This document shows, in pieces, positions 48,359 through 64,000 of a DNA stretch of 64,000 nt. Made by a program: the position numbers and the translations under genes. The first letter of the stretch is position 1. The number at the start of each line of letters is the position of its first letter. This DNA comes from Phytopseudomonas daroniae (GTDB lineage: Bacteria > Pseudomonadota > Gammaproteobacteria > Pseudomonadales > Pseudomonadaceae), in assembly GCF_004327285.1 (NCBI RefSeq), contig NZ_QJUI01000023.1, positions 1-64,000 of the forward strand, given 5' to 3'. Below the pieces are notes generated by a model. That model saw nothing but the letters and a program-made list of their open reading frames with translations, had not been told where the DNA came from and ran no database searches.

Positions 48359-49266
48359 GAGGGAGCTCCTGGCGACCGGCCGGGGGCGTTGGGTAGAGCC
48401 TCGGCCAGATCGAACTTCTGTAAAAGCGAGTAGGCGTCGTAGGGCGCGCGTACCTTGAGGTCGTTGTCGAAATAGCAGTAAACGTCACGCGAGGCCCGTG
48501 CCCGCGGCTTGTGTTTGTCGATCAGTTGCGCGTCGCCGGGGTGGTGACCGCGGCTCCAGGTGGCGATGCGCTGGTGCCAGTGATCCAGCGCCTGTTCGTC
48601 ATAGCCACTCTCGTAGAGCTTGCCGTTGCCGTGCAGGCGCAGGTAGACGAAGTCGCTGGTCAGGTCTTCGGCGTAGGGCCACTTGCCGCCGCTGTCGGCG
48701 AACACCAGGGCGACCTTGTGCTTGCGCAGCAGGGCGATGAAGGCTGGGTCACGGAAGCTGTCATGGCGGATTTCCACGGCATGCTGCAGGCGCTGGTGAT
48801 GGGTCACCTCGAGGCTGCCCTCGCTGTGGCGATCCGCTGCGCGCGCACAGCGCTGCGCCTGTTCGGTATCTTTCGGCAGCAGGGCGAGAAATTCGGCGAA
48901 GCGCTGCTCGTCGAAAGCCATGCTCGGCGGGAATTGCCAGAGAATCGGGCCCAGCCTGTCGCCCAGTTGCAGCGGGCCGGAGGCGAAGAAATTGGCGATT
49001 GGCGTGGCCACATCGTTCAAGCGGCGTATGTGGGTGATATAGCGCGGCGCCTTGACCGCGAAGCGAAAACCGCTCGGTGTTTCGCTGGCCCAGCCGGCAT
49101 AACGCTCGGGTGTCTGCAGGGCATAGAACGAACCATTGATCTCGATGCTGCTGACTGCGCGGGAGGCGAATTCCAGCTCCTCGCGCTGGCGCAACCCGGG
49201 CGGATAGAAATCGCCACGCCAGGGCGCGTAGCGCCAGCCGGAGATGCCGATATGGATACGGTTCAA
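48355..49266 (-). CDS. DUF72 (YecE-like) protein
   Basis: A 303-residue TIM-barrel protein: IHIGISGWRYAPWRGDFYPPGLRQREELEFASRAVSSIEINGSFYALQTPERYAGWASETPSGFRFAVKAPRYITHIRRL, and later LGPILWQFPPSM, FAVEIRHDSF and YVYLRLHG-type stretch (FVYLRLHGNGKLYESGYDE). This is the DUF72 pattern. No activity is established to my knowledge. The start appears to be TTG 49266, as no ATG or GTG in frame lies before the conserved IHIGISGW; it has no clear ribosome site. An 18-bp perfect palindrome lies about 40 bases upstream of it. It is the first gene of the overlapping set with ybhP, clsB and ybhN. Confidence 0.85.
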   Translation of the reverse strand: MNRIHIGISGWRYAPWRGDFYPPGLRQREELEFASRAVSSIEINGSFYALQTPERYAGWASETPSGFRFAVKAPRYITHIRRLNDVATPIANFFASGPLQLGDRLGPILWQFPPSMAFDEQRFAEFLALLPKDTEQAQRCARAADRHSEGSLEVTHHQRLQHAVEIRHDSFRDPAFIALLRKHKVALVFADSGGKWPYAEDLTSDFVYLRLHGNGKLYESGYDEQALDHWHQRIATWSRGHHPGDAQLIDKHKPRARASRDVYCYFDNDLKVRAPYDAYSLLQKFDLAEALPNAPGRSPGAPS

Positions 49267-49352: not shown

Positions 49353-49766
49353 TCAGTGAGCCCCGGTGACGCTGCGCAGCAGGGCTACGCTGGCATCGTT
49401 GTCGCCGCCCTGAGCGATATTGCCCAGGGAAATCACGCCAACCAGCCGCTTCTCGCGGCTGAGCACCGGTAGGCGGCGCACCCTGTTCTCGCCCATGTTG
49501 CGGGCGACATGCTGCAGGTCTTCATCCTCGAAGCAGTAGCGGATGTCGCCACTCATCACTTCGGAGATCGGCGTTTCGCCCGGCATACCGGTGGCCACAG
49601 CGCGAATGGCGATGTCGCGGTCGGTGATCATGCCGATCAGGCGATCGTCCTGATTGACCAGCAGGGCACCACAATCGATGCGCGCCATTATCGCGGCCGC
49701 TTCGTGGATGGTCTGGCTTGGCGTGATGGTTTGCACGCCGCGGGTCATGATATCGCTGACTTTCAT
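49353..49766 (-). CDS. Two-CBS-domain protein
   Basis: A 137-residue protein composed of two CBS repeats: MKVSDIMTRGVQTITPSQTIHEAAAIMARIDCGALLVNQDDRLIGMITDRDIAIRAVA and then ISEVMSGDIRYCFEDEDLQHVARNMGENRVRRLPVLSREKRLVGVISLGNIA. Stand-alone CBS pairs bind adenine nucleotides (AMP, ATP or others) and regulate partner proteins; here the partner is unknown. AGGAGGACAG is a strong ribosome site. It lies 149 bp downstream of the glycosyltransferase of the glg/tre operon on the same strand, and 86 bp ahead of DUF72. Confidence 0.93.
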   Translation of the reverse strand: MKVSDIMTRGVQTITPSQTIHEAAAIMARIDCGALLVNQDDRLIGMITDRDIAIRAVATGMPGETPISEVMSGDIRYCFEDEDLQHVARNMGENRVRRLPVLSREKRLVGVISLGNIAQGGDNDASVALLRSVTGAH

Positions 49767-49915: not shown

Positions 49916-50560
49916 CTAAAGCAGGGACTTGAGATAGTCGCCGAAGCCACCTCGGGCTCGGCAGTCCAGCCGCGCGCTGGTGTACACCTGCGGCAGGCAG
50001 CTCCAGGCGATGCGCGCGCCAATACGCTCGAAGGCCGCCACCAGTTGCACGTCTTCGTCGACCGGGATTGCCTTGAACCCGCCCGCGCGGCGGTAGCAGG
50101 CGGCGCTGAAGGAGAGATTGGCACCATGGATGTGGCGGTGTCCGTCGCGGGCCTGGTAAGCGCTTTCGTAGCGCGTCTGTACTGCCTGGCCGAGGTCGCC
50201 CCATTCGGCGATCTGCACGGTGCCACACACCATGTCGGCATTCAGATCCAGCTGGCGCACCAGCCAGTCCTGCGCGACGTGGCTGTCGGCGTCGGAGCAC
50301 GCGATCCAGGTGGCGCCGTGAGACAGCAGCCACTCGATGCCTGCAGCCCGCGCCAGGCCGACATTGTGTGCTTGCAGCGTCAGGGTATCGACCGGATAGC
50401 TGGCCGCGATACTGGCAGAGCCGTCGCTACAGCTATCCAGCACCACCAGTATGCGAACCGGCACGGCCAGGTCGGGATGAGCTGCAGCAGCCAGTACCGC
50501 ACCAAGGCATTGGTCGAGAGACAGCTCTTCGTTGTGCGCGGGAATGACGATACCGATCAT
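49916..50560 (-). CDS. Family 2 glycosyltransferase, short form
   Basis: A 214-residue GT-A fold enzyme: MIGIVIPAHNEELSLDQCL, LVVLDSCSDGSASIAA, LARAAGIEWLL, the DxD-like WIACSDADSHVAQDWL and the acceptor-base region FKAIPVDEDVQLVAAFERIG. All core GT2 elements are present, but it lacks membrane segments, unlike NodC or cellulose synthase, so it is probably a soluble transferase acting on a small or carrier-linked acceptor. The donor is unknown. It overlaps the methyltransferase stop (ATGA) and is the last gene of the ten-gene operon. No terminator is seen in the 149 bp after it. Confidence 0.88.
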   Translation of the reverse strand: MIGIVIPAHNEELSLDQCLGAVLAAAAHPDLAVPVRILVVLDSCSDGSASIAASYPVDTLTLQAHNVGLARAAGIEWLLSHGATWIACSDADSHVAQDWLVRQLDLNADMVCGTVQIAEWGDLGQAVQTRYESAYQARDGHRHIHGANLSFSAACYRRAGGFKAIPVDEDVQLVAAFERIGARIAWSCLPQVYTSARLDCRARGGFGDYLKSLL

Positions 50561-51183
50561 GCTGGCAACTCATGTCCATCGCCGGGGGCGAGCCCCTCGC
50601 GTTGTGCCACGGAAGTCGACTGGGTACCCCACACCTCAAGCAGCATGTCGGTATCCTCGTGACGGAGCAGGTGCGGCAGCCCCAGACCCTGGTGAAGACG
50701 CTCGTGTACTTCATCACCGGTCAGTGGGCATTCGTCGATGGGCCTGCGCCAGTGGCAGGCGAGCAGGTTGCCGCCCTGGTTGAGCGCAGCGCGGGCACGG
50801 GTGATCAGTTGGTCGAGATCCTGCTCGTCCAGGTAGTAGCACAGTTCGCTGAGCACGATCAGGTCGAAGCTGCCTGGCGGCCATTGTTCGGGCAGGCGAG
50901 TCTGCAGCAGACGCACGTTGCTGCGGTGTTCGAGGCGGTTGCGGGCCAGCTCCAGGGCGATGGCCGAGGTGTCGCTGCACAGCAACTGAGTGCAGCGTTC
51001 CGCCAGACGGACGCTGAGCTCGCCATTGGCGCAACCCGGTTCGAAGATACTGCCGTAATGGCTGCGTGGCAGAGCGGCGAGCGTCAGGTTGCGCTTGCGC
51101 TGCTCGTACCAGCGCTCGCGGAACGACCAGGGATCCTGGCTGCCCTTGTAGAGCTTTTCGAAGTAGTTGTCTGCGACGCTCAT
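50557..51183 (-). CDS. SAM-dependent methyltransferase, NodS-like
   Basis: A 208-residue class I methyltransferase: SVADNYFEKLYKGSQDPWSFRERWYEQRKRNLTLAALPRSHYGSIFEPGCANGELSVRLAERC contains the motif I GPGCANG-type (EPGCANGE) and FDLIVLSELCYYL motif IV/V. The sequence PWSFRERWYEQRKRNLTLAALP before it is what I associate with NodS, the N-methyltransferase of Nod-factor synthesis. N-methylation of an amine freed by the neighbouring PIG-L deacetylase is a natural inference. It overlaps both neighbours by four bases (ATGA). Start 51183 follows AGGTGGTG. Confidence 0.86.
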   Translation of the reverse strand: MSVADNYFEKLYKGSQDPWSFRERWYEQRKRNLTLAALPRSHYGSIFEPGCANGELSVRLAERCTQLLCSDTSAIALELARNRLEHRSNVRLLQTRLPEQWPPGSFDLIVLSELCYYLDEQDLDQLITRARAALNQGGNLLACHWRRPIDECPLTGDEVHERLHQGLGLPHLLRHEDTDMLLEVWGTQSTSVAQREGLAPGDGHELPA

Positions 51184-51938
51184 AAGAACACCACCTCGAA
51201 TGGTTGCTGCAGGCGTTCCACGGTAATGGCCGAAAGCACCGGCTCGTGGTCGGTATCCGGATCGCTGTACAACTGGCTGGCAAAGGCCTGTATGGCGTGA
51301 CGCTTGCGCGCCTGGGCCCATTTATCCAGCTGTAGCTTGCGGGCACGAGCCCACGGAATGCGCGGGTCTTCCGGGTTGGCCCAGTGCCAGGCCCATACGG
51401 GTATCTCGTGCACGCGCGCGCCACATTCCCGAGCCACCGCCAGGGCAGCACGGCCTACGGCCTCGTGGTCGCTGTGGCCATCCTCGCTCCAGGTGGTGAA
51501 CACCACGTCGCTGGATTGCAGGTAGGTTTTGAGAAAATCGCGCAGTTGGTTTTCCTGAGTGGCTACCCCGGTATCGGGAAAGCCACCGTGTATCCATTGC
51601 ATCTGGTTGAGTGGCAGACCCAGGCGCTTCAGCGCGTCGGCGGTCTCCAGCGGGCGTACGATGCTCAGCCGTTGCGGTGTCCAGTAACGCGAGCCCTGGT
51701 GGCTGGCACCGCCATCGGTAACCGAGATCAGCAGGACTTGGCGTTGTTCGCGAGCCAGCAGTTGCAGCAAGCCTCCGCAACCGAGGATTTCATCGTCCGG
51801 ATGGGGCGAAACGATCACCGCCCGTGACCCGGCCGGCACCAGCTCCGCGCAGTCGATATCGGCCACCCGTGCCAGGTGCCGTGACGCTTTCCAGGCTTGT
51901 GGCGAGGTGCCTTGTCCTTGAATCGGGTTGGCATTCAT
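51180..51938 (-). CDS. PIG-L family deacetylase
   Basis: A 252-residue zinc-dependent amidase of the LmbE/PIG-L fold. The metal motif VSPHPDDEILGCGG (HPDDE) and the later DGHSDHEAVGRAA (H-x-x-H) provide the zinc ligands and base. Characterised members remove acetyl from N-acetylglucosaminyl lipids, GlcNAc-inositol (MshB) or bacillithiol precursors (BshB). A GlcNAc-type sugar would therefore be the first guess for the substrate. Start 51938 (MNANPIQGQG); it overlaps the acyl-CoA-dehydrogenase-like stop and the methyltransferase start by ATGA. Soluble, no signal peptide. Confidence 0.9.
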   Translation of the reverse strand: MNANPIQGQGTSPQAWKASRHLARVADIDCAELVPAGSRAVIVSPHPDDEILGCGGLLQLLAREQRQVLLISVTDGGASHQGSRYWTPQRLSIVRPLETADALKRLGLPLNQMQWIHGGFPDTGVATQENQLRDFLKTYLQSSDVVFTTWSEDGHSDHEAVGRAALAVARECGARVHEIPVWAWHWANPEDPRIPWARARKLQLDKWAQARKRHAIQAFASQLYSDPDTDHEPVLSAITVERLQQPFEVVFL

Positions 51939-52972
51939 AGCATCCAGCTCCCTTGTTGTTGTCGCGCTGTGAGGCTGCCGAGGGCGGCCAGATCGCGCTC
52001 GGCATGGCTCTGTCGCAGGAACACCGGCAGGTCGGCGAGATGCCGGGCGAGCGCGGCATCTCGGCAGTACGGGGCGGCGCCCAGCGCACGGCCGACATGG
52101 CGAATCACGGTCTCGGCGCTGCTTTCGCACAAGGCACGTACGCGACGCACCGGTAACTCGGCGTTGGCCTGTGGGTTTTCGTCGATCCAGCGGGCGCAGT
52201 CGTGCAGTGCGCTGGCAGCCGCCAGCAGCGTACTGTCCACCTCGCCGAGGTGGGCGAGGGCATGGGGTTCATCGTGCCGGGCACAGTGCCTGCGCAACGC
52301 CTCGCCGATGGTCTGTGCCGAGCCATACCAGCAGGCCGCGATACCCGCGCCGCCTTGCCAGAAACCTGGTCGCTGCAGATAGCCGTCGGCTGGGCCTACG
52401 AGCCACCCGCGGGCTTCCTCGAACAACACTTCGACGCTCTGCGTGGCCTGCATGCCGATCGCCTGCCAGCCCTGGTCTGTGATGTGCACACCAGGCTGCT
52501 GCAATGCGACGGCGACCAGTTGCTGCTCGCCGCGGGTATTCCAGGCGGTGAGCAGCCCATGGCTGAGCACCTTCGCGCCGGAGCACCAGGCCTTGCGTCC
52601 ATGCAGGCGCACACTGCCGTCGCTTTGCTCGGCGTCCAGCTTGACGCGCGCCTGCGGCGGTTCGGCTGCCCACATGCCCCAGGTACTGTCCGCGGGCGGT
52701 GGGTTGGCAGCGAAGTGCTGCATGATCGCCAGCGCGTCAGTGTGCCCTTCGTAGAGTTTGCACAGGCTCAGGTCATGTGCAGCGACCGCGGCCAGCGCCT
52801 GCCAGCGGTGCATCGTCTGGCCGCTGCCAGGCTGCGGTAACTGGTCGAGATCGGCGCGGCAAAGCGTTTGCAATGCCTGCGCGAGGGCCTCGGGCTGGAT
52901 CGGTGCGGGTAGCGGCAGCTCGCTTAGTAGAGCGCCGAGGCGATCCGCTGAAAAGCCGCCGCTGTGTGTCAT
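51935..52972 (-). CDS. Acyl-CoA dehydrogenase-fold flavoprotein, probably not a dehydrogenase
   Basis: A 345-residue flavoprotein of the ACAD fold, shorter than the 380 of true dehydrogenases. WQALAAVAAHDLSLCKLYEGHTDALAIM, GSVRLHGRKAWCSGAKVLSHGLLTAW and FWQGGAGIAACWYGSAQTIGEAL show the N-terminal, beta and C-terminal helical domains. At the point where dehydrogenases carry the catalytic Glu (I-Y-E-G-T), it has PVFLRQSHAERDLAALG, so the base is missing; the RxxHAERDLxxLG ending resembles flavin monooxygenase/oxidase members (DszC-like). It overlaps glgX and PIG-L by ATGA, so it is coupled to both. Substrate unknown. Confidence 0.85.
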   Translation of the reverse strand: MTHSGGFSADRLGALLSELPLPAPIQPEALAQALQTLCRADLDQLPQPGSGQTMHRWQALAAVAAHDLSLCKLYEGHTDALAIMQHFAANPPPADSTWGMWAAEPPQARVKLDAEQSDGSVRLHGRKAWCSGAKVLSHGLLTAWNTRGEQQLVAVALQQPGVHITDQGWQAIGMQATQSVEVLFEEARGWLVGPADGYLQRPGFWQGGAGIAACWYGSAQTIGEALRRHCARHDEPHALAHLGEVDSTLLAAASALHDCARWIDENPQANAELPVRRVRALCESSAETVIRHVGRALGAAPYCRDAALARHLADLPVFLRQSHAERDLAALGSLTARQQQGSWML

Positions 52973-55098
52973 ACCGGCTTTTCCTTGTGCAGCTCGAAGA
53001 GCACCAGCGAGCGATGAGTCATGGTGAACTCGCTGCCGAACTGGAAGACTTCGTCTTCCGGCTCGTCGGTGCGGTTGGTGTCGAGCATGCACGTCCAGTG
53101 GCTGCCCTGGGCGACTTCCGGCAGGTGGAAATTGACCACGTCGTGGTGGGCGTTGACCACCAGCAGCAGGGTCGCGTCGGCGCCGCTGCGGCGAATACCG
53201 GTCGGCTGAGCGCGGCCATCGAGCAGCATGCCCAGGCAGCGGGCGTGCGGGTCGTGCCAGTTTTCCTCGCTCATCTCCTCGCCGTGGGGCGCCAGCCAGG
53301 TCACGTCCTTGACGCCCAGCTCTTCGTTGTAGGCGCCGACGAAGAAGCGCCCGCGACGCAGGATCGGATAGTTCATGCGCAGCTTGATCAGCCGGCTGAC
53401 GAAGGCCTGCAGTTGCTTGCCCTGCTCACCGAGGTTCCAGTCGATCCAGCCGATTTCGCTGTCCTGGCAGTAGGCGTTGTTGTTGCCGTGCTGGGTGCGG
53501 GCGAACTCATCGCCGGCCACCAGCATCGGCGTGCCCTGCGACAGCAGCAGGGTGGACATGAAGTTGCGCATCTGACGGAAGCGCAGGTCGTTGATTTCCT
53601 CGTCGTCGGTTGGCCCCTCGACGCCGTGGTTCCAGGACAGGTTGTTGTTGCTGCCGTCCTGATTGTTCTCGTCGTTGTCCTCGTTGTGCTTGTCGTTGTA
53701 CGACACCAGATCATTGAGGGTGAAACCATCGTGGGCGGTGATGAAGTTCACCGAGGTGAACGGCCGCCGACCGCGCTGGTTGTACAGGTCGCCGGATGCG
53801 GTAAGGCGGCTGGCAAGCTCGGCCAGCTGACCTTCGTCGCCTTTCCAGAAACCGCGCACGTTGTCGCGGAATTTGTCATTCCACTCTGCCCAGCCCGGCG
53901 GGAAGCCACCGACCTGATAGCCACCGGGGCCGCAATCCCACGGCTCGGCGATCAGTTTCACCTTGCTCAGCAGCGGATCCTGGCGGCAGGCGACCAGGAA
54001 GCTGTGGCGCTCGTCGTAGCCGTCATGGGCACGGGCAAGAATGGTCGCCAGGTCGAAGCGGAAACCGTCCACACCCATTTCCCTGGCCCAGTAGCGCAGC
54101 GAGTCGGTGACCATCTGCAGCACGCAGGGGTGGCTCAGATCCAGGGTGTTGCCGGTGCCGGAATCGTTGATGTAGTAACGCTTGTCATCGGGCATCAGCC
54201 GGTAATAACTGGCGTTGTCGATACCGCGCATGGACAGGGTCGGGCCCAGCTCGTTGCCTTCGGCGGTATGGTTGTAGACCACGTCGAGAATCAGCTCCAG
54301 GCCGGCATCGTGCAGGTGCGCGGCCATCTCCTTGAACTCGTTGATGTGCCCGCTGGCCAGGTAGCGCGGATGCGGCGCGAAGAAGCCGATGCTGTTATAG
54401 CCCCAGTAGTTGTTCATGCCTTTTTCCAGCAGGTGCTGGTCGTTGACGAAGGCATGGATGGGCAGCAGCTCTACCGAGGTAACGCCGAGCTTGCGGATGT
54501 GCTTGATCACATCGGCGTTCATCAGCCCGGCGAAGGTGCCGCGCTTGTCGTCGGCCACCGCCGGATGACGCATGGTCAGGCCGCGCAGGTGCGCTTCGTA
54601 CAGCACGGTCTTGTCCCAATCCACGCGATGGCTACGATGCTTGCCCCAGGTGTACGCCGGATCGACGACCTTGCACTTGGGCACGAAGGACGCACTGTCA
54701 CGCTCGTCGAAACTGAGGTCGCCATCGGGATGACCGATCTCGTAGCCGAACAGTGCTTCCGACCATTTCAATTCGCCCACCAGTTGCTTGGCATAGGGGT
54801 CGATCAGCAGTTTGTTGGGGTTGAAGCGGTGCCCGGCTTCCGGCTCGTAAGGGCCATACACGCGGTAGCCGTAGATCAGCCCCGGATGCGCATCGGGCAG
54901 GTAGCCGTGCCAGATTTCGTCGCTGTACTCCGGCAGTTCGATGCGCTCGATCTCCTCCAGGCCGTCGGGATCGAAAATGCACAGCTCGACCTTGGTGGCG
55001 TGGGCCGAGAAGAGCGCGAAGTTGACGCCCAAACCATCCCAGGTCGACCCCAGAGGAAAGGGGTGACCTTCGGTAATACGCGAGCGTGGATGACTCAT
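52969..55098 (-). CDS. glgX: Glycogen debranching enzyme
   Basis: A GH13_11 isoamylase-type enzyme that hydrolyses alpha-1,6 branches of phosphorylase-limit dextrin. The 709-residue protein has an N-terminal CBM48 (GHPFPLGSTWDGLGVNFALFSAHATKVELCIFD), the barrel with EMGVDGFRFDLATILAR (nucleophile D), KLIAEPWDCGPGGYQVGGFP (acid/base E) and TAHDGFTLNDLVSYNDKHNEDN, the GlgX signature. A long Asp/Asn-rich loop (HNEDNDENNQDGSNNNLSWN) follows. AGGAG precedes the ATG. It is 18 bp from the DUF2934 gene; the flavoprotein gene overlaps its stop by four bases, so the cassette downstream is tied to it. Confidence 0.97.
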   Translation of the reverse strand: MSHPRSRITEGHPFPLGSTWDGLGVNFALFSAHATKVELCIFDPDGLEEIERIELPEYSDEIWHGYLPDAHPGLIYGYRVYGPYEPEAGHRFNPNKLLIDPYAKQLVGELKWSEALFGYEIGHPDGDLSFDERDSASFVPKCKVVDPAYTWGKHRSHRVDWDKTVLYEAHLRGLTMRHPAVADDKRGTFAGLMNADVIKHIRKLGVTSVELLPIHAFVNDQHLLEKGMNNYWGYNSIGFFAPHPRYLASGHINEFKEMAAHLHDAGLELILDVVYNHTAEGNELGPTLSMRGIDNASYYRLMPDDKRYYINDSGTGNTLDLSHPCVLQMVTDSLRYWAREMGVDGFRFDLATILARAHDGYDERHSFLVACRQDPLLSKVKLIAEPWDCGPGGYQVGGFPPGWAEWNDKFRDNVRGFWKGDEGQLAELASRLTASGDLYNQRGRRPFTSVNFITAHDGFTLNDLVSYNDKHNEDNDENNQDGSNNNLSWNHGVEGPTDDEEINDLRFRQMRNFMSTLLLSQGTPMLVAGDEFARTQHGNNNAYCQDSEIGWIDWNLGEQGKQLQAFVSRLIKLRMNYPILRRGRFFVGAYNEELGVKDVTWLAPHGEEMSEENWHDPHARCLGMLLDGRAQPTGIRRSGADATLLLVVNAHHDVVNFHLPEVAQGSHWTCMLDTNRTDEPEDEVFQFGSEFTMTHRSLVLFELHKEKPV

Positions 55099-55116: not shown

Positions 55117-55443
55117 TCAGGCCTTGGGCTTCTTGGTGGTGGGCTTGGGGGCGGTCGGTTTGGCTTTGGTCGGCGCCTTGGCCGGTTTGAGCAAGGCTGG
55201 CTTCTCTGCCTCGGGCGGAGCCGTCTTGCGGGCACGCGACTTGGTCGGTGCGGCGGGCGCTGGCTCGGTGGCGGCAGCTTTAGGCTTGCTCACGCGCTTG
55301 GCCGTGGCCTTGGCGGGCGTCTGCTCGGCTTCAACGAGCTTGGTGGCCATTTCCCAATGACGTTTGGCTTGGCCATGGGGTTTCCCTTCGGATTCCCAGA
55401 TCTGGTAGGCGAATTCACGGATGCGTTCTTCATTGGCGCTCAT
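55117..55443 (-). CDS. DUF2934 protein with Lys/Ala/Pro-rich histone-H1-like tail
   Basis: A 108-residue protein. The first 37 residues (ERIREFAYQIWESEGKPHGQAKRHWEMATKLVEAE) are the DUF2934 helix pair, found in small stress-linked proteins of many proteobacteria. The following 70 residues are TPAKATAKRVSKPKAAATEPAP..., a repeating K-P/A tail like eukaryotic histone H1 or Pseudomonas AlgP, which suggests nucleic-acid or polyanion binding. It overlaps the treY stop (ATGA) and precedes glgX by 18 bp; it is therefore part of the operon. Function unknown. Confidence 0.85.
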   Translation of the reverse strand: MSANEERIREFAYQIWESEGKPHGQAKRHWEMATKLVEAEQTPAKATAKRVSKPKAAATEPAPAAPTKSRARKTAPPEAEKPALLKPAKAPTKAKPTAPKPTTKKPKA

Positions 55444-58244
55444 GGGGGTGACTCCTGAGATTGGGTAGAGACGATCAGCAGGTTGACAGGGACATCGCGC
55501 AGTACGTCGCGTAGCGCGATATGGCAGTCACTCGGTAATGGGGCGGCAGGGCAGAAAACGCTGTACAAAGCCTTGCCGGACAGCGCCGATGGCAGGGCGA
55601 TGCGGGTGTCGCCCCATTGGTCATGGGTAATCAGTGGCGTCTGGCTGTCGCCCAGTAGCGAGGCGGCCAGGCGTGGCACGACCACCAGCAGGTGGGTCTC
55701 GCCATGGTTGCGCAGGAAGGCGAGTACCTTGTCGGCATGGCGTCCTGTCACGCAGAGTGGCTGATAGTCGCCTTCTGCGAACAACCGTCGGTGCTGCTTG
55801 CGGGCCGTGAGGGTTGCAGCGATCAGTGCCTGCTTGACCTGGCCGTCGTGCCAGTGCGGCAGCGTCTCGGCAATCGACGCGTTGCTGTCCAGCGCCTGCT
55901 GGCGAGCGGCGAAATCCACCGGGCGGCGGTTATCCGGATCGACCAGGGAGAAGTCCCAGAACTCACAGCCCTGATACAGATCGGGCACGCCCGGTACGCT
56001 CATGCGCAGCAGGCTCTGCGCCAGGCTGTTGAGCGCGCCGGCCGGGGCGATCCGGGCAGCGGCGAGGCGGATCTCATTACGCAGCTCGGCACCTTCTTCG
56101 CTACCGAGCAGCTTCTCCAGATACGTCTTGCAGGCACTTTCGTAGCTATCGTTGGGGTTGCTCCAGGTGCTGCGCAGCTTGGCCTCACGCACGGCTTTTT
56201 CCTGCCAGGCGATCAGTCGCTCGGTGAATGCCTGCAGACCCGCGGCGTCATCCGCTGGCAGATCCAGCGGCCAGCAGGCCAGCAGGATCTGCAGCAGCAT
56301 CAGTTCATCACCTGGCGACGGCGCGGTGCCGTCATCGAGTTCTTCGCGCAACGGTGCCGCCAGTTCGCGCCAGTGTCGGCAGCGTTCGGCGAACCATTCG
56401 GCGCGCTCGCTGAGTACCGCCAGTCGCGCACGGGTGTCTTCGCCGCGCTTGTGGTCATGGGTCGCGGTGGTCAGCAGGTTGGCCGGGAAGTGCCGGGCCC
56501 GCTGCAGGCAGCCCTGGTGAAAGGCGTCGACCGGCGCGCTGAACTGTTGCGGGTCGAAACCCACGTCATTGCGCGACAGCAGCACGGCGCTGCGATAGCA
56601 GGCAGTGTCTTCCACGGCCTTGGCGGCAGCCGGAGAGGTGAGCTGCTGGAAGCGCTCGATCATCTTCGTCCAGAGTTTGCGCTGTGGGCTCGGTGGCCGC
56701 TCGGACAGCACCTGACCGCCGAGCCAGTTGTCGAGGTGCTCGAGCAGCGGCCAGTCGGCTTCTGCCAACGTGTTGCGCGCGCCTTCCAGCGCCTGATCGA
56801 AAACCGCCTGATCGCTGGCGCTGCGGCCTGCCGCAGAGACATAGGTGCGATACACCGGGAAGTGCACGATCAGTTCCAGCAAGGCACGGCGAATGGCGCC
56901 CAGGGTCAGATCGCGGGTGGCGATATCGTCCCGGGCGATCAGCAGCAGACCCTGGGCCAGCGCCTCGAGATCGCCGGCCAGGGAGGTGGTTAGCACCAGT
57001 TGCCGGGCCTGGCGCACTTCCTCCATGAAGTCGGCGCCACGGCCGCTGGTCTCGCTCCACAACTGGGCCAGCACGGCCTCGCCTTCGGGAGCGTGCTGCA
57101 GCAGGGAAACCTGGTTCATGAATTCGTAGCCGGTGGTGCCGTCGACGCCCCAGTCGTGAGGCAGTTGTTCACCTTCACCGAGAATCTTTTCGACGTAGAT
57201 CGGGAAACGGCTGCCACGCAATTCGGCGGGCCTCTGTGGCAGCAGGCGCTCGACGCGGCGACGCAGCTTGCGACAGTACGCACGCGGGTTGGCCAGACCA
57301 TCGACGTGGTCGATACGCAGCCCGTCGACCAGGCCGTTTTCGATCATCTCGAAGATCTTCGCGTGGGTCGCTTCGAACACCTCATGGCGCTCGACCTTGA
57401 GGCCGCCCAGTTCGTTGATGTCGAAGAAGCGCCGCCAGTTGATGTCGTCCGCCGCCGTGCGCCAGCTGGCCAGGCGATAGTGCTGGCGTTCGAGCAATTG
57501 GTGCAGGGCCATGAAGCCGTGCTCCTCGCTGGGCCGCAGGCTGGCAATGGCACGCTCGACGGCGCCACCGGTCTTGCCGGCCAGGGCGAGCAGTTCACGG
57601 AACAGGGTGTGCGCCTGGCGTTGGCTGTCCTGGCTGTCATCCAGCGCCGCGAAACGGTTGCCCAGGGCCTGCAGCTCGGCGTGCTCACTGCGTTGCAGCA
57701 CGTCGCCATAGGTCGGTGGGTTGAGCGGGAACCGATGGTCGTAGTGCTTGGCGTAGAGCAGGCCACGTTCGGCATCGAAGTGCAGTTCGATTTCGCCCGC
57801 CGCCAGCACTTCGCCGTAGTCGCTGCGCAGGAAGGGCACCAGCAACTGGCCGCGCAGCAGCGGGTCGGGGGATTGCCAGTGGATATCGAAGAACTTCGCG
57901 TGGCGGCTGTTGGCGCCCCATTCCAGCACATCCAGCCACCAGGGGTTGGCGTCGCCGCCTACCGCCATATGGTTGGAAACGATATCGAGGATCAGTCCCA
58001 TGCCCCGGGAGCGCAGCGCTGCGACCAGGCGTTGCAGAGCAGCTTCGCCACCGAGCTCCGGGTTGACGCGGGTCGGGTCGACCACGTCATAGCCATGCAT
58101 CGAACCCGGTCGTGCGGTGAGCAGCGGCGAGGCGTAGATGTGGCTGATGCCCAGGCGCGCGAAGTAATCCACCAGGGGCACGGCATCGTCGAGGGTGAAG
58201 CTCTTGTGAAACTGCAGGCGCACGCTGGCGCGTAATTCAGTCAT
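55440..58244 (-). CDS. treY: Malto-oligosyltrehalose synthase
   Basis: A GH13_26 intramolecular transglucosylase that turns the reducing-end alpha-1,4 bond of maltooligosaccharide into the alpha-1,1 bond of trehalose. The 934-residue protein starts MTELRASVRLQFHKSFTLDDAVPLVDYFARLGISHIYASPLLTARPGSMHGYDVVDPTRVNPELGG, the TreY signature, with DGLRIDHVDGLANP (nucleophile D) and VEKILGEGEQLP (E). Start is ATG 58244; a frame running 184 codons further upstream lies antisense-free but inside malQ and is rejected. It overlaps malQ by eight bases and DUF2934 by four. Confidence 0.96.
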   Translation of the reverse strand: MTELRASVRLQFHKSFTLDDAVPLVDYFARLGISHIYASPLLTARPGSMHGYDVVDPTRVNPELGGEAALQRLVAALRSRGMGLILDIVSNHMAVGGDANPWWLDVLEWGANSRHAKFFDIHWQSPDPLLRGQLLVPFLRSDYGEVLAAGEIELHFDAERGLLYAKHYDHRFPLNPPTYGDVLQRSEHAELQALGNRFAALDDSQDSQRQAHTLFRELLALAGKTGGAVERAIASLRPSEEHGFMALHQLLERQHYRLASWRTAADDINWRRFFDINELGGLKVERHEVFEATHAKIFEMIENGLVDGLRIDHVDGLANPRAYCRKLRRRVERLLPQRPAELRGSRFPIYVEKILGEGEQLPHDWGVDGTTGYEFMNQVSLLQHAPEGEAVLAQLWSETSGRGADFMEEVRQARQLVLTTSLAGDLEALAQGLLLIARDDIATRDLTLGAIRRALLELIVHFPVYRTYVSAAGRSASDQAVFDQALEGARNTLAEADWPLLEHLDNWLGGQVLSERPPSPQRKLWTKMIERFQQLTSPAAAKAVEDTACYRSAVLLSRNDVGFDPQQFSAPVDAFHQGCLQRARHFPANLLTTATHDHKRGEDTRARLAVLSERAEWFAERCRHWRELAAPLREELDDGTAPSPGDELMLLQILLACWPLDLPADDAAGLQAFTERLIAWQEKAVREAKLRSTWSNPNDSYESACKTYLEKLLGSEEGAELRNEIRLAAARIAPAGALNSLAQSLLRMSVPGVPDLYQGCEFWDFSLVDPDNRRPVDFAARQQALDSNASIAETLPHWHDGQVKQALIAATLTARKQHRRLFAEGDYQPLCVTGRHADKVLAFLRNHGETHLLVVVPRLAASLLGDSQTPLITHDQWGDTRIALPSALSGKALYSVFCPAAPLPSDCHIALRDVLRDVPVNLLIVSTQSQESPP

Positions 58245-60318
58245 GGCGTGTGCCCTCGACCCGATTACGTGCCCACTGCAAACGTTGTAGACGGCGACTG
58301 ACCGCAGGTTGCTCGAGCATGTCTTCGGCGTGCGCCGGCCAGCGCCGGCGCCAGTTCGGGTGATCGTCTCCCGGGCCCGGCAGATTGGGTTGCTCGGTGG
58401 TGGCCATGGCATCTTCCAGGGGCAACAGCACCAGCGGTGCTGGCGTGCTGCCGATAAAGGCGATGCTGGCGTCCAACTGCTGTTGCTCGTCGTCCGTTTC
58501 GTCTGAAGCGACGTGACCGTGCTGCTGCAAGGCCTGACGCAGCGCCCGGGTTTCGTGCGCGCGCAAGTCGTGATCCTGTCTGGTGTAGTCGTCGCTGCGG
58601 TGGCCCGCGGTTTGGCGCCAATCAATGTCGCGTGAGGCGAACCAGCCGCGGATGCTCGGTAAATCGTGCGTGGTGGTGGTCGCCAGGGCGTCCCGTGGCC
58701 AATGCGTCGGCGCGTGGAAGTGGCCGTTGCTTTGCTCGAACAGCAGCACGCGCATGCCCAGAATGTTGCGCCGGGCCAGCTCTTCGCGCAGGCCATCGGG
58801 CACGGTGCCGAGGTCTTCGCCGATGATCAGTGCGCCATGGCGCTCGGCTTCCAGGCACAACAGGCGCAGCAGATCCTGGGACGGATAATTGAGGTAGGCA
58901 CCGGCCCCGGGCGCTTCTCCGTCAGGGATCACCCACAAGCGGCGCATGCTCATCACATGGTCGATACGCATACCACCGGCATGGGCCAGGTTGGCACGCA
59001 GCATTTCGATGTAGGCGCGAAAGCCATTGCTTTGCAGGCCTTGGGGCGAAAATGCGGAAACGCCCCAGTTCTGCCCGGAGCGATTGAGGATGTCCGGCGG
59101 TGCGCCGACGCTTACCGCTTGCAGCAGCTCCGACTGCCGCGCCCAGGCCTGGCTGCCCGACGCATCGGCGCCCACGGCCAGGTCTGCGATCAGGCCTACG
59201 GCCATGCCGGCATCCCGGGCGCTGCTTTGGGCACGGTCGAGGCAGCGAGCGATCAGCCATTGGGCGAAGGTGTGGAATTCGATCTCCTGTTCGTGGCCAT
59301 CACAGAACTGTGTAACAGCTTCGCTGGCCGGATCACGATACTGTTCGGGCCATACGCGCCAATCCACCGGCAGCCCGTTGAGATCCATGAAACCGCGCAG
59401 CGCCTCGAAACGGCAGTGCTGATGCAGCGCATCGCCGCCCTCGCGACGAAAGGCCTCGAAGTCGGCGCGCAGCGGATGGGCGTCCTGGCTGAAGTCGGCG
59501 TGCAACTGACGCAGGATGCGCATTCGGCTACTTGCCACGCCAGGCCAGTCGATCAGGTCGAGACTTTCCAGGCGCGCCAGTTCTTCACCGAGACCACAAC
59601 TGCTGATCGCCCGTTGCAGGGCTTCCTCGCCTAGAACGCTGCCCGGCGCCGCATGCAGTACGTTGAAGAACAGACGGCTGGAAGGCGAGTAGGGGCTGTA
59701 GGTATGCAGGTTGGCGCTGAACATGGCATGCACCGGGCTGATCGCCACGGCATCGGCACCATGCCTGGCCGCGCTGCGCACCAGGGATTCCAGTGCCTGG
59801 GTGTTGCCCAGGCCGCCATCCCGAGGGCGGCGCAGCGAATAGAGCTGCGCGCTGAGGCCCCAGATTTTCGCGTCCGCACGCCCGGCCAACTGGGCCACGC
59901 TCGGGCACGCCGCTGGGGCAACGGCAAGCGTCACTTCGCCACCGGCAATCCGTAAGCGGTGATAACCGGTGATGCCGATAACGGGCAGGCGCCCGCTGCC
60001 ATCGAGGCGGCCTTCGAGGCGTTCGCCCTGTTCCAACTCGAGTTCGAAGGAGGTGCCTGGCGGGAAATAGCGGGTCAGATCCAGCGCTTCCTGCTGGTCG
60101 AGAGTCACCAGTGGCCCGAGAGCCTGGGTGTCCTGGCGGTGTTGCAGCTGGCCGAGGCTGTCTTCGATCTGCTCGCTGCTTTGCGCCGGATAACCCAAGG
60201 CTTCCAGCAGGCGACGCTGGTGTTCCGAGGTGACTGATTGGGCGCGGCCATCGGCGTCGATCCAGTCGACGCTCAAGCCTGCGGCTTTGCTCAGATCGGC
60301 AAGGCGTGCATCGCTCAT
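58237..60318 (-). CDS. malQ: 4-alpha-glucanotransferase (amylomaltase)
   Basis: A GH77 enzyme that transfers alpha-1,4-glucan segments between maltooligosaccharides, smoothing chain lengths for TreY and GlgP. The 693-residue protein has PVHAMFSANLHTYSPYSPSSRLFFNVLH, then GGMRIDHVMSMRRLWVIPDG (nucleophile D), IIGEDLGTVP (acid/base E) and TTTHDLPSIRGWFASRDIDW. An N-terminal 140-residue extension precedes the barrel, as in other MalQ of this length. The start overlaps the treZ stop by ATGA; the end overlaps treY by eight bases. The name follows the E. coli gene. Confidence 0.95.
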   Translation of the reverse strand: MSDARLADLSKAAGLSVDWIDADGRAQSVTSEHQRRLLEALGYPAQSSEQIEDSLGQLQHRQDTQALGPLVTLDQQEALDLTRYFPPGTSFELELEQGERLEGRLDGSGRLPVIGITGYHRLRIAGGEVTLAVAPAACPSVAQLAGRADAKIWGLSAQLYSLRRPRDGGLGNTQALESLVRSAARHGADAVAISPVHAMFSANLHTYSPYSPSSRLFFNVLHAAPGSVLGEEALQRAISSCGLGEELARLESLDLIDWPGVASSRMRILRQLHADFSQDAHPLRADFEAFRREGGDALHQHCRFEALRGFMDLNGLPVDWRVWPEQYRDPASEAVTQFCDGHEQEIEFHTFAQWLIARCLDRAQSSARDAGMAVGLIADLAVGADASGSQAWARQSELLQAVSVGAPPDILNRSGQNWGVSAFSPQGLQSNGFRAYIEMLRANLAHAGGMRIDHVMSMRRLWVIPDGEAPGAGAYLNYPSQDLLRLLCLEAERHGALIIGEDLGTVPDGLREELARRNILGMRVLLFEQSNGHFHAPTHWPRDALATTTTHDLPSIRGWFASRDIDWRQTAGHRSDDYTRQDHDLRAHETRALRQALQQHGHVASDETDDEQQQLDASIAFIGSTPAPLVLLPLEDAMATTEQPNLPGPGDDHPNWRRRWPAHAEDMLEQPAVSRRLQRLQWARNRVEGTRHD

Positions 60319-62057
60319 GCTGCGCCCTCCAGCAGAACCCGGATGCTGCGCGGTAGCAGGCGATCGGCACCTGCATCCGTACGGTAGGTAAACAATGTAC
60401 GGGCCTGTTCGTGAGCTTGAGTCGCAACTTCGGCGTCGCTCAGGTTCAGGTCGATACGCAGAATCTGCCCATCCCCCAACTGCCAGCTGGCAGCCACTGC
60501 CGCTTCGCCCAGTACCCGGCTTTCCAGCGCCTGGCTACCTTGCAGGCGCGGCACGATGTGTTCATGGCGCAGCGTCAGCAACTCACGGTAGAAGGCCACC
60601 CAGGCTTGCCCTGCGGGCGTGTTGCGTGCGGCGTAATCGGGTACGGACGCCTCGAATGTGCCAGCTTCGTTGGGGGCGGGAATGGCCAGGCCGGAAAACC
60701 TCGAGAACTCGCGAAACTCGTTTTGCCGACCCTTGCGCACCGCCTCGCCCAGTTCGTCGTTGTGCGAGGTGAAGAACTGGAACGGCTGCTCGCAGCCCCA
60801 TTCCTCGCCCATGAACAGCAGCGGAATCATCGGGCTGAGCAGCAACAGGGCTGTGGCGCTCTTCAAGGCATCGGTATCGGCCAGCGCCAGCAGACGTTCA
60901 CCGAGGGCGCGGTTGCCGACCTGGTCGTGGTTCTGCAGGAACAGCACGAAAGCGCTTGGGGGAAGGTGTCCGCTGCTGCTGCCGCGGGCAGTGCCGTGAC
61001 GGGTGGTTTCACCCTGGTAGATGAAGCCTTCACGCAGGCAGCGAGCAAGCTTGTGGGTGGCATCCTCGGCGAAGTCGGCGTAGTAGCCTTCGTGTTCGCC
61101 GGTCAGCAAATGGTGCAGCACGTTATGGCCGTCGTCGTTCCATTGGGCGACGAAGCCTCGTTGCAGCAGTTCGGCGTCGTTGTTCTCGTTTTCCAGCACC
61201 AGATGCAGGTGGCGCGTCGAAGGGATCGAAGCGTGCAACCGATCCGCCAGTTCGAGCAGGAAGTCGCGCTCGTCGATGGCATGTACCGCGTCCAGGCGCA
61301 GGCCGTCGACGCGATAGTCCTGTATCCACATCAGGGCGTTGTCGAGAAAGTAGTCACGCACTTCGCGGCGGCGGAAATCGATGACCGGGCCCCAGGGGGT
61401 GTGCACGTCCTTGCGGAAGAAATCGCTGGCGTACTGCCCCAGGTAATTGCCGTCGGGGCCGAAGTGGTTGTAGACCACATCGATGAAGACCATCAGGCCC
61501 AGTTCGTGAGCACGGTCGATCAGTGCGCGCAGTTCATCGGGCGTGCCGTAAGAGGAATCCGGAGCGAAAGGCAGAACGCCGTCGTAACCCCAGTTGCGGC
61601 CACCGGGAAACTCACCCAGGGGCATCAGTTCGATGGCGGTGATACCGAGTTCGCTCAGCGCCTGCAGCCTGGCTTCGACACCTTTATAACCGCCCAGCGT
61701 GCCGACGTGGAGTTCATAGAGCACCGTCTCCTGCCAGGGGCGGCCCTGCCAGTCGCTGGTACGCCAGGCGTATCGTTTGGGGTCGGCTACACGGCTTGGG
61801 CCGTGTACGTCGCTGGCTTGCCAGCGCGAAGCCGGGTCGGGCACCAGCAGGTTGTCATCGATCAGGTAGCGGTAATCGCTACCGGCGCCTATCGATAGCG
61901 TTGCCGTGAACCAGCCATCTTCAGTGGCCGCCATCGCATGCTGCTCAGCGTCCTGCAGTTGTACCGCCACACTTTTGGCGTCTGGCGCCCAAAGGGAAAA
62001 ATGGGTTTGACCGTCCTCGTCCAGCCAGGCGCCGTATCGTCGCTTTTTTTCTACCAT
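60315..62057 (-). CDS. treZ: Malto-oligosyltrehalose trehalohydrolase
   Basis: A GH13_10 hydrolase that cuts trehalose from the end of the product of TreY. The 580-residue protein has an N-terminal beta domain (RRYGAWLDEDGQTHFSLWAPDAKSVAVQL), the barrel with [21 protein letters not shown] (nucleophile D), HLHLVLENENND (E) and FLQNHDQVGNRALGERL. GGRNWGYDGVLPFAPDSSYGTPDELR is typical. Start at ATG 62057 overlaps the glgA stop by one base (TGATG), which rejects a longer upstream frame inside glgA. It ends in an ATGA overlap with malQ. Confidence 0.96.
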   Translation of the reverse strand: MVEKKRRYGAWLDEDGQTHFSLWAPDAKSVAVQLQDAEQHAMAATEDGWFTATLSIGAGSDYRYLIDDNLLVPDPASRWQASDVHGPSRVADPKRYAWRTSDWQGRPWQETVLYELHVGTLGGYKGVEARLQALSELGITAIELMPLGEFPGGRNWGYDGVLPFAPDSSYGTPDELRALIDRAHELGLMVFIDVVYNHFGPDGNYLGQYASDFFRKDVHTPWGPVIDFRRREVRDYFLDNALMWIQDYRVDGLRLDAVHAIDERDFLLELADRLHASIPSTRHLHLVLENENNDAELLQRGFVAQWNDDGHNVLHHLLTGEHEGYYADFAEDATHKLARCLREGFIYQGETTRHGTARGSSSGHLPPSAFVLFLQNHDQVGNRALGERLLALADTDALKSATALLLLSPMIPLLFMGEEWGCEQPFQFFTSHNDELGEAVRKGRQNEFREFSRFSGLAIPAPNEAGTFEASVPDYAARNTPAGQAWVAFYRELLTLRHEHIVPRLQGSQALESRVLGEAAVAASWQLGDGQILRIDLNLSDAEVATQAHEQARTLFTYRTDAGADRLLPRSIRVLLEGAA

Positions 62058-63595
62058 CACACCAATTTCCCACCCGACTTCTTCGCGGCCAGCAGCTTGC
62101 GATACAGCGCCGCGTAGGGTTCCACCGACTGCCTCCAGTACAGCGGTGATGCCATCGCACGGGCGCGCATGGCGTTGAGCAGTTGCGGATTGCGGTAAAC
62201 CGCCATCGCCCGACGCACGGCTTCCAGGTAGCTCTCGGTGGTAGTTTCGTTGAACAGGAAACCGCTGACACCGTCCTCGATGGTATCGGCCAGGCCGCCG
62301 GTAGCTCTGGCAATAGGCAGCGAGCCAAAGCGCTGGGCGTACATCTGGCTGAGGCCGCACGGCTCGAAGCGCGAAGGCATGAGCAGGAAGTCGCTACCCG
62401 CGAACATGCAGCGGGCATCGGCTTCATTGAAGCCGACATTGGCGCCGATACGTCCAGGGTGACGGCGGGCCAGCTCGCGCACTGCTTCTTCCAGGTGTTC
62501 TTCACCACGGCCGATGATGGCGATACGGCCACCCTCGGCGACGATGGCGTCGGCGATCTGCAGGGTCAGATCAATGCCTTTTTGCTGCACCAGACGCGAC
62601 ACCACGGCGAACAGCGGGCCGTCGCTGGGCTCCAGGCCGAACATCTGCTCGACGTGGCGGGTGTTTACGCGCTTGCCTTCCCAATCATGGGCGTCGAAAC
62701 CTTGCACCAGATGGGGATCGTTCAGCGAATCCCAGCTGTCGTCGATGCCATTGGGAATGCCGCTCAACTGATTGAGCCGTACCTTGAACTGCAACATGCC
62801 TTCCAGGCCGCAGCCGAAGGCTTCGGTGGTGATTTCGCGGGCGTAGTTGGCGCTCACGGTGGTCACGTGATCCGAATACACCAGCCCTGCCTTGAGGAAC
62901 GACAGCCGGCCGTAGAACTCCATGCCCTGATGGCCGCACGCCGAGGAGGGCAGGCCCAGTTCCGGACTGCATTCCAGGCTGCACAGGCCCTGGTAGGCGA
63001 GGTTGTGGATGGTGAACACGGTAGGCGTGCTCTGGCCGCGCCAGCTCATGTAGGCCGGGGTCAGTGCGGCAGGCCAGTCGTTGGCGTGAACCACTTCGGG
63101 GCACCAACTGAGGCACGCGGTACCTGCGGCGATTTCAGCGGCAGCCAGACCCAGGCGGGCGAAACGGATGTGGTTGTCCTGCCAGTCACGACCGTGGCTG
63201 TCGGCGTAGGGCGTACCGTCACGGTCATAGAGTTCGGGGCATATCAATACGTAGACGATCAGCCCATCGGGCAAGGTCATGCAGCCGACACGTGCCGGGG
63301 GCAGGGCGGCATGGCCGGGAACGCTGCCGACGTCACGAATGGGGTGGCCGCTTTCAAGCACCTGACGGTAGCCGGGAATCAATACCCGGACGTCATGATC
63401 CGCGCTCATGGCACGCGGCAGCGAAGCGGACACATCACCCAGGCCACCAACCTTGATCAGGTCGGCGAGCTCAGGGCTTACAAAGAGGATTTTCTTTTTC
63501 ACCGCGTGCAGATTGGTAATTTTGGTTTGAGGCTTGAGCGTTGTTTCTATCGATGCCGATTGATCAAACCGTGTTGCTGCGACAGCGTTTCCCAT
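62057..63595 (-). CDS. glgA: Glycogen synthase (ADP-glucose type)
   Basis: A GT5 glycosyltransferase that elongates alpha-1,4-glucan from ADP-glucose. At 512 residues: VKKKILFVSPELADLIKVGGLGDVSASLPRAMSADHDV is the donor-binding N terminus (KVGGLGDV in place of the KTGGLADV of E. coli); the C-terminal half has VVSRLVQQKGIDLTLQI and the SRFEPCGLSQMYAQRFGSLPIARATGGLADTI signature. ATG 63595 is chosen because GGAGG sits five bases ahead; a frame with 25 more codons exists. It heads the ten-gene operon. No glgC is in the window. Its N-terminal 37 residues before the VKKKILF core are non-conserved. Confidence 0.95.
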   Translation of the reverse strand: MGNAVAATRFDQSASIETTLKPQTKITNLHAVKKKILFVSPELADLIKVGGLGDVSASLPRAMSADHDVRVLIPGYRQVLESGHPIRDVGSVPGHAALPPARVGCMTLPDGLIVYVLICPELYDRDGTPYADSHGRDWQDNHIRFARLGLAAAEIAAGTACLSWCPEVVHANDWPAALTPAYMSWRGQSTPTVFTIHNLAYQGLCSLECSPELGLPSSACGHQGMEFYGRLSFLKAGLVYSDHVTTVSANYAREITTEAFGCGLEGMLQFKVRLNQLSGIPNGIDDSWDSLNDPHLVQGFDAHDWEGKRVNTRHVEQMFGLEPSDGPLFAVVSRLVQQKGIDLTLQIADAIVAEGGRIAIIGRGEEHLEEAVRELARRHPGRIGANVGFNEADARCMFAGSDFLLMPSRFEPCGLSQMYAQRFGSLPIARATGGLADTIEDGVSGFLFNETTTESYLEAVRRAMAVYRNPQLLNAMRARAMASPLYWRQSVEPYAALYRKLLAAKKSGGKLV

Positions 63596-64000
63596 ACCAT
63601 CCTCCGATCTATTCTGTCCTTGATCCGTGATTGTTTTGCTTGCTTGCACGCTATCGGGAATATGCCGCATGTCTTTCCAGTTGAATCCCGTGTTGGGGCA
63701 GGAGGAAAAGCTGCTTTCTGGTTGTTAATTCCCACCTAATTGATGACCCAGGAGGGAAAGAAGAAGTTTCGGCTATTTTTGCTGCCGCTTCGGACAGGAA
63801 GGAACTAATGGAAAGCAGCAGGTTTTCGCTGCGCGTATCCTGGAAATCATGGTTTTTCGACTGCGTTAGTCGCTTTTGGCTGGAGCTTTCAACTGTTTGC
63901 AGGAGGGCTTGGAGGTGTCTTTCAGGCATTCGCACCCGCATAGGGCGACAGGCGGTCATTTCTAAGCGGGCATGCTTAGTTGACCCATCCTGTACCTGCC
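63596..64000 (-). promoter_or_regulatory. Upstream region of the glgA operon
   Basis: The last 405 bases of the window have no gene I can support; a 102-codon minus frame (63651-63959) lacks a plausible start. The region is comparatively AT-rich. On the minus strand GAAACTT (63770-63764), 17 bases, then TCATC (63746-63742) resembles the AlgU type with one extra A in the -35; it is 150 bases before the start. The window ends before the operon's own promoter can be bounded. Confidence 0.4.

Follow-up and report, generated by a model that had tools for sequence, protein, structure and literature searches.

The 64,000-nucleotide stretch of Phytopseudomonas daroniae DNA considered here (contig NZ_QJUI01000023.1, positions 1 to 64,000; referred to as a whole as the window) harbours, next to a trehalose operon, four short genes which encode a flavoprotein of acyl-CoA dehydrogenase (ACAD) fold, a protein of the PIG-L (LmbE-type) deacetylase family, a NodS-like S-adenosylmethionine (SAM)-dependent methyltransferase (MT) and a family 2 glycosyltransferase (GT2 or GT). 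These four genes are a genuine module which changes its genomic location as one block, and we are highly confident of the module and of its link to stress. As to what it makes, we put forward, with slightly more doubt than confidence, a small, soluble, N-methylated and oxidised amino-sugar glycoside which would be formed in the response to osmotic, desiccation or oxidative stress. The module, the families, the conserved motifs and the recurrent link to trehalose genes were computed; common expression with otsA/otsB is taken from PMC5660220.

Relatives of the flavoprotein (P0004) were present in 9 of 194 genomes of the order (E ≤ 1e-5), in 52 of 248 of the family (1e-10) and, by profile, in 33 of 398 genomes and 22 of 212 genera of the phylum (1e-25), while plasmid records gave 38 matches (1e-8) and viral contigs, scanned by pattern with P0004, gave no relative. 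From these we assembled 74 loci, namely 34 of the 52 family matches, 5 from the order, 20 of 21 from the phylum beyond the order and 15 hand-picked plasmid-record stretches, which carry 38 genus labels, including Acinetobacter, Comamonas, Sphingomonas, Legionella, actinomycetes and Nostoc (a coded genus may be the same as a named one). Up to 20 kb were inspected around each locus, contig ends clipping some; a weak match (L046, E 3.7e-11), a lone ACAD gene of Methylobacterium (L165), the partial match G122, G733 and the window itself stand outside this sample. All four genes lie within 10 kb of each other in 62 of the 74 loci and at least three of them in 68, which led us to drop a mere chance neighbourhood as an explanation. 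The complete set occurs under 34 genus labels. Hence, the co-conservation proposed in an earlier note on this DNA is borne out, and it is ruled out that the four genes occur jointly in no other genome. The commonest order is ACAD-PIGL-MT-GT; the GT gene comes first in Sphingomonas and some others and is reversed in L073 and L245-L247, while the ACAD gene comes last in Legionella.

In the window, four 4-nt ATGA overlaps join the genes from glgX onward (glgX-ACAD, ACAD-PIG-L, PIG-L-MT and MT-GT2), with overlaps and coordinates exactly as the earlier note had given them. The overlaps suggest translational coupling and no fused protein, so that its wording of a cassette “fused translationally” to the operon is too strong. 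A scan of named genomes yielded 165 stretches with an ACAD relative, the best 80 of which (L081-L160) are all near relatives from Pseudomonas and were tallied separately from the 74 loci. In these best 80, glgX is the recognised gene directly 5' of ACAD. The overlaps are not accidental: one of 4 nt (ATGA, GTGA or TTGA) is seen in 77 of the 80 at ACAD-PIGL, in 75 at PIGL-MT and in 64 at MT-GT (12 unscorable), but in only 13 at glgX-ACAD. Since the overlaps are kept inside the set and rarely at its border, the block is tightly coupled internally and loosely to glgX. Its loosest part is the glycosyltransferase gene, whose membership, claimed earlier, holds for the 62 complete loci of the wider sample: among the 80 Pseudomonas loci it is missing or broken in 11, as detailed below, which makes ACAD-PIGL-MT the core.

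Among the 30 best-scoring of 58 glgX matches (in 54 of 59 genomes of the genus; neighbours read within 1.5 kb), ACAD is next to glgX in 20, PIG-L without ACAD in 6, a CBS-domain gene directly in 2 and none of these in 2. The PIG-L gene of the six ACAD-less loci is closer to a second PIG-L type. In L296 and L320, both of the same genus, the CBS gene directly follows glgX with no ACAD between, i.e. the site is empty. A second PIG-L gene is also found 3' of the set in 62 of the 80 Pseudomonas loci, many of them of the P. fluorescens group, and in L055, L056, L058, L065 and L069.

A trehalose gene (otsA, otsB, treY, treZ or glgE) lies within 10 kb of the set in 30 of the 74 loci and under 15 of the 38 genus labels. 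Of 40 control regions, three have one, a difference with a Fisher p of 0.0002 when loci are counted and of 0.001 when genera are; the control regions were placed non-randomly, at round coordinates of 26 set-bearing genomes, and one of their three matches is weak (52 bits). The arrangements comprise otsB-otsA-set in three genera (L044, L079, L228), otsA-set-otsB in both Comamonas loci (L161, L169), the set facing otsA/otsB (L164, L233), otsB-GH65-set (L168) and, with treYZ, glgX-treZ-malQ-treY-glgA-set (L229) as well as set-glgA-treZ-malQ-treY (L051). When mapped on an 82-protein ACAD tree, which was built by a quick method and contains four long end branches (Legionella among them), the ots link requires six changes, at least five of them forced by starred branches, the treYZ link four and the glgE link two. 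The trehalose link arose repeatedly, and with the unrelated pathways treYZ and otsA/otsB. That the set is always next to glg/tre genes, a point which the earlier note had put up for checking, does not hold, since 44 of the 74 loci are without otsA, otsB, treY, treZ and glgE within 10 kb. At the level of whole genomes, and assuming that the 398 phylum genomes were the same draw in each search, 31 of the 33 ACAD-bearing genomes possess OtsA or TreY versus 106 of the 365 others (counted singly, OtsA 26 versus 96 and TreY 26 versus 41), and TreY in 16 of 22 set-bearing genera versus 38 of 212 overall, counts which are confounded by kinship and genome size.

Further neighbours of the set point to stress as well. 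A catalase lies near it in 12 of the 74 loci, LigD/Ku in 9 and DUF892 in 4, each being present in none of the 40 controls; since these families were picked after the neighbours had been noticed, the counts are descriptive only. Mn-catalase is also among the neighbours. The set directly follows ligD, with ku nearby, in L057, L060, L080, L072, L075 and L077, one genus having glgE too; this neighbourhood is a second stress context within the same family. Extra glycosyltransferases adjoin the set in 7 of the 74 loci (six genus labels). A glycosyltransferase-like protein without Pfam family, which may extend the product, adjoins it in L045, L047, L239, L240, L243 and L246, mostly together with GT7C/GT2-like and GT4 proteins; the window's genome contains no relative of it at E ≤ 1e-8.

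Expression data come from Acinetobacter baumannii, whose genes ACICU_02432-02435 are listed, in the accessible part of PMC5660220, as glycosyltransferase, SAM-dependent methyltransferase, LmbE and ACAD-related protein and as one operon, “e”. We equate this operon with the set by names, order and an A. baumannii record (L171, ACAD-PIGL-MT-GT in a row), not by sequence. In two colistin-dependent mutants it is down 31- to 62-fold, along with the distant otsA/otsB, which fall 12- to 50-fold, and with a catalase that falls 22- to 31-fold; the section which holds these data does not discuss operon “e” in its text (PMC5660220).

Regarding the pathway, we infer from the families the order of steps, the substrate, nitrogen as the target of the methyl group and the oxidation. 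The GT2 would join an N-acetyl amino sugar of GlcNAc type to a small acceptor, the PIG-L protein would strip the acetyl group and thereby free the amine, the NodS-like enzyme would N-methylate this amine, and the flavoprotein, as a flavin monooxygenase or oxidase, would oxidise the product; in the window's bacterium these genes would be coupled to trehalose synthesis. An amino-sugar product tied to trehalose had been proposed in the earlier note. The families, as judged from sequence, are compatible with the former, and the recurrent gene linkage agrees with the latter.

The PIG-L protein (P0003) matches its Pfam family at 95.1 bits (cut-off 28.2), and the zinc motif H46-P-D-D-E50 together with H155, D157 and H158 (HPDDE, HxDH) is invariant in 29 rows. 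Among proteins of solved structure, diacetylchitobiose deacetylases come closest to it (9e-21), and BshB-type and glycopeptide deacetylases as well as MshB are also found. The sole other PIG-L match of the window's genome (L002, G000:C33:235554-235940) adjoins a LysR-type regulator and an RraA/aldolase-like open reading frame (ORF) and looks like a catabolic enzyme rather than an amino-sugar deacetylase. The methyltransferase (P0002) matches NodS in Pfam with 43 bits (cut-off 24) and Methyltransf_12 better, with 51.1. Its closest solved relative is 4isc, named only “Methyltransferase” (8e-76 over its whole 164 residues), followed by NodS (3ofj, 2.2e-29), the closest named one, and by phosphoethanolamine N-methyltransferases (1e-14). 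These relatives favour N-methylation without proving it. The glycosyltransferase (P0001) matches Glycos_transf_2 with 47 bits (cut-off 23.3), its 214 residues making up one bare GT-A domain, and the acidic metal motif D90, D92 is kept in at least 90% of 28 rows. Its model (44 rows, i.e. 43 of 45 GTs and the window; pLDDT 93) displays the GT-A fold. Foldseek ranks WrtF best (3.5e-10); the GT-A enzymes which this fold search listed are 11-19% identical and give no clue to donor or acceptor.

The flavoprotein appears to lean towards the group D flavin monooxygenases over the dehydrogenases, although not decisively. Its sole Pfam match, Acyl-CoA_dh_M, is below the cut-off (28.1 versus 33.3 bits), with no other acyl-CoA dehydrogenase family recognised. 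The model (46 rows, i.e. 45 of 58 non-redundant ACADs and the window; pLDDT 89) shows the complete ACAD fold, the one named in the earlier note. The protein may nevertheless work as a monooxygenase instead of a dehydrogenase. The closest named relative, from Pseudomonas flavescens, is 81% identical. By profile, the best solved relatives in the PDB are TdsC, a DszC-type monooxygenase, and DszC (8.5e-13 to 8.5e-10, TdsC being on top), followed by the acyl-CoA dehydrogenase human ACAD8 (9e-9), KijD3 (4.2e-7) and DnmZ (1e-4); DnmZ and KijD3 are among the best fold matches. Of 13 proteins from the window's genome that were compared with it, the top five are of group D types. S131-G132 is invariant in 31 rows and aligns with the [ST]G motif of all seven own group D proteins, and H323, kept in at least 90% of these rows, aligns with their loop His. 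The Ser of this motif, S131, presumably occupies the position of HPAH Ser171. As far as the accessible parts of the respective papers tell, HPAH Ser171 stabilises the hydroperoxyflavin (PMC10696468), and the loop His, His396 in HPAH and His391 in DszC, has a role with it (PMC10537072, PMC11134501). Q321, invariant in the 31 rows, is aligned with the Glu of the dehydrogenases' EGT loop (YEGT type). Of the six own dehydrogenases, four have EGT/EGS, one has the GAGT of isovaleryl-CoA dehydrogenase (IVD) type and one neither; as they vary at this loop, the missing Glu does not exclude a dehydrogenase. With the group D enzymes (DszC/TdsC, HPAH) and the nitrososynthases (KijD3, DnmZ) P0004 has the ACAD fold, the SG Ser and, outside Sphingomonas, a candidate loop His in common, yet it is only about 18% identical to them and shorter, and dehydrogenases match almost equally.

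Several points weigh against an N-methylated, oxidised amino-sugar glycoside as the product. With regard to the flavoprotein, human ACAD8 outranks KijD3, i.e. acyl-CoA dehydrogenases match too, and the fold comparison is a tie which does not split dehydrogenases from monooxygenases, VIA-align giving Z 30.0 for both TdsC (2.9 Å over 325 residues) and isovaleryl-CoA dehydrogenase (3.0 Å over 320). The gap between own group D proteins (1.2e-15) and own dehydrogenases (6e-12) is small, and two of the seven former score below three of the six latter. The candidate catalytic H323 is absent in both Sphingomonas rows, and none of the genes recognised near the set encodes a flavin reductase, a search of the whole genome for one not having been made. 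Some PIG-L proteins are not deacetylases, and the other one of this genome is apparently catabolic. The methyl group could go onto oxygen instead. No GT gene was found in the fetched DNA of ten Pseudomonas loci which keep ACAD and PIG-L (L093, L094, L099, L108, L111, L118, L122, L139, L154, L156; in L122 the MT match is short as well), and in an eleventh, L142, it is present in fragments only. Many other genes are more than 10-fold down in the A. baumannii mutants, as given in the accessible part of PMC5660220. The 44 unlinked loci, the confounded co-occurrence counts and the post hoc choice of stress neighbours belong here too, as do two genomes (G060, G620) with ACAD and MT genes but neither OtsA nor TreY (TreS was not searched).

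The alternative which survives best, a serious possibility although we would not favour it, has no biochemical tie to trehalose at all: the set and the trehalose genes would both be part of the general stress response regulon and gather in stress islands, the product being an unrelated protectant or redox compound. The catalase, Mn-catalase, LigD/Ku and DUF892 neighbours, the joint fall with distant otsA/otsB in A. baumannii and the 44 unlinked loci are all consistent with it, whereas the glgX overlap in the window and the Comamonas arrangement otsA-set-otsB are tighter than a shared regulon needs, the former, however, being kept in so few Pseudomonas loci. Unlikely, in our view, is a set which modifies trehalose or trehalose-6-phosphate, to which the GT2 would add an amino sugar that is then deacetylated, N-methylated and oxidised to yield a charged trehalose derivative. 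This would explain otsA-set-otsB and otsB-otsA-set as well as the treYZ and glgE links, but is at odds with the unlinked loci and with G060 and G620. We consider it improbable that the set builds an envelope or lipid glycoconjugate, with a GlcNAc-lipid or part of the lipopolysaccharide being deacetylated and methylated and the ACAD-fold protein acting on an acyl chain. The full ACAD fold, the extra glycosyltransferases and the fall of operon “e” in colistin-dependent mutants would suit such a role, while GT2 and MT are short single-domain proteins, and the fall does not single out the envelope since otsA/otsB and a catalase drop in the same mutants (PMC5660220, as far as accessible). Equally improbable is P0004 as a plain dehydrogenase that acts on an acyl group bound to CoA or to a carrier, in a set making an acylated sugar: the tied Z scores and the profile matches of ACAD8 and of the own dehydrogenases speak for this, the Pfam result and the replacement of the EGT-loop Glu by the invariant Q321 against it, though in IVD-type dehydrogenases the catalytic base lies elsewhere.

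The amino-sugar glycoside which we tentatively favour has its nearest chemical counterpart in Nod-factor synthesis (NodC-NodB-NodS), which follows the same logic of glycosyl transfer, N-deacetylation and N-methylation and whose NodS is the closest named solved relative of the MT. The parallel drawn in the earlier note is chemical only and does not extend to the families. The MT is below the NodS equivalog (NF041650; 52.5 bits versus a cut-off of 300). The deacetylase matches only PIG-L in Pfam at E ≤ 0.001, whereas NodB belongs to family CE4, and the bare GT-A domain is unlike NodC, a membrane chitooligosaccharide synthase. The flavoprotein is an extra relative to that pathway, and no NodA acyltransferase is among the 10 window proteins scanned with Pfam, the rest of the genome not having been searched. 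With these family tests failed, a Nod-factor cassette was dropped. Bacillithiol and mycothiol synthesis (BshA-BshB-BshC, MshA-MshB) likewise combines glycosyl transfer with a subsequent PIG-L deacetylase to give a stress metabolite. A thiol of this type was dropped since P0003 does not reach the equivalog cut-offs of BshB1 (44.8 bits versus 182.5) and MshB (16.7 versus 224.35); moreover, no cysteine-adding enzyme is recognised in the set, and a GT2 stands where those pathways use a GT4.

Our searches of the open-licence PMC literature, where most subscription papers are lacking, met no paper that assigns a product to the set, in agreement with the earlier note, which knew of none. The Pseudomonas trehalose operon glgA-treZ-malQ-treY-glgX, beside which the set sits in the window, is described up to glgX (PSPTO3125-3130 in P. 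syringae), without mention of the four genes in the accessible parts of PMC8084333 and PMC8982409; a P. syringae deletion of PSPTO3125-3130 likewise ends, according to these parts, at glgX. In that strain the four genes would be the next ones. Sugar transfer, PIG-L and methylation are a known logic; their combination with such a flavoprotein and with trehalose is, to our knowledge, undescribed.

On the minus strand of the window the genes follow each other in the order glgA, treZ, malQ, treY, DUF2934, glgX, ACAD, PIG-L, MT and GT2; 3' of GT2 come CBS, DUF72, EEP, PLD and MprF-N-like genes. The last four of these (45361-49266; the PLD gene is cardiolipin-synthase-like) run in one direction, and the same run recurs at other loci, in L072 and L075 5' of the set. 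Between 44000 and 64000 there is no RNA family match at or above the gathering score, and a promoter scan gave one promoter-like site, a number equal to that in shuffles.

Table 1. Genes of the trehalose operon, the four-gene set and the adjacent CBS gene, in the order of the minus strand.
Gene or product	Coordinates	Strand	Remarks
glgA	62057..63670	-	NF001901, 835 bits (cut-off 649)
treZ	60315..62360	-	TIGR02402, 692 bits (cut-off 538.8); family match from residue 120
malQ	58237..60318	-	TIGR00217, 318 bits (cut-off 205.65)
treY (malto-oligosyltrehalose synthase)	55440..58796	-	listed ORF start too early; family match from residue 185-189
DUF2934 protein	55117..55443	-	within the trehalose operon; Pfam
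glgX (glycogen debranching enzyme)	52969..55098	-	directly upstream of ACAD; TIGR02100, 1086 bits (cut-off 640.9)
ACAD-fold flavoprotein P0004, 345 aa	51935..52972	-	possibly a monooxygenase; start inside the 4-nt ATGA overlap with glgX
PIG-L (LmbE-type) deacetylase family protein P0003, 252 aa	51180..51938	-	ATGA overlap with the ACAD gene
NodS-like SAM methyltransferase P0002, 208 aa	50557..51183	-	ATGA overlap with PIG-L
Short GT2 glycosyltransferase P0001, 214 aa	49916..50560	-	ATGA overlap with MT
CBS-domain protein	49353..49766	-	after the four-gene set

Being linked time and again to two unrelated routes of trehalose synthesis, and in some loci to catalase or non-homologous end joining (NHEJ) genes, the set may give rise to a compound that bacteria make on drying or salt. 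In its boldest form, which we regard as very unlikely but worth stating, the product would be an N-methylated, N-oxygenated amino-sugar glycoside of hydroxylamine or nitrone type, possibly built on trehalose, which protects drying or oxidised cells. If so, the sugar nitrogen would be the target of the ACAD-fold protein, in the manner of the KijD3-type sugar N-oxygenases, and the pathway would span pseudomonads, Acinetobacter, actinomycetes and cyanobacteria, having been overlooked because the annotation of its genes goes no further than the family. As four short genes in one operon are concerned, the question is directly testable, and PIG-L/NodS-type chemistry would extend outside symbiosis and antibiotics.

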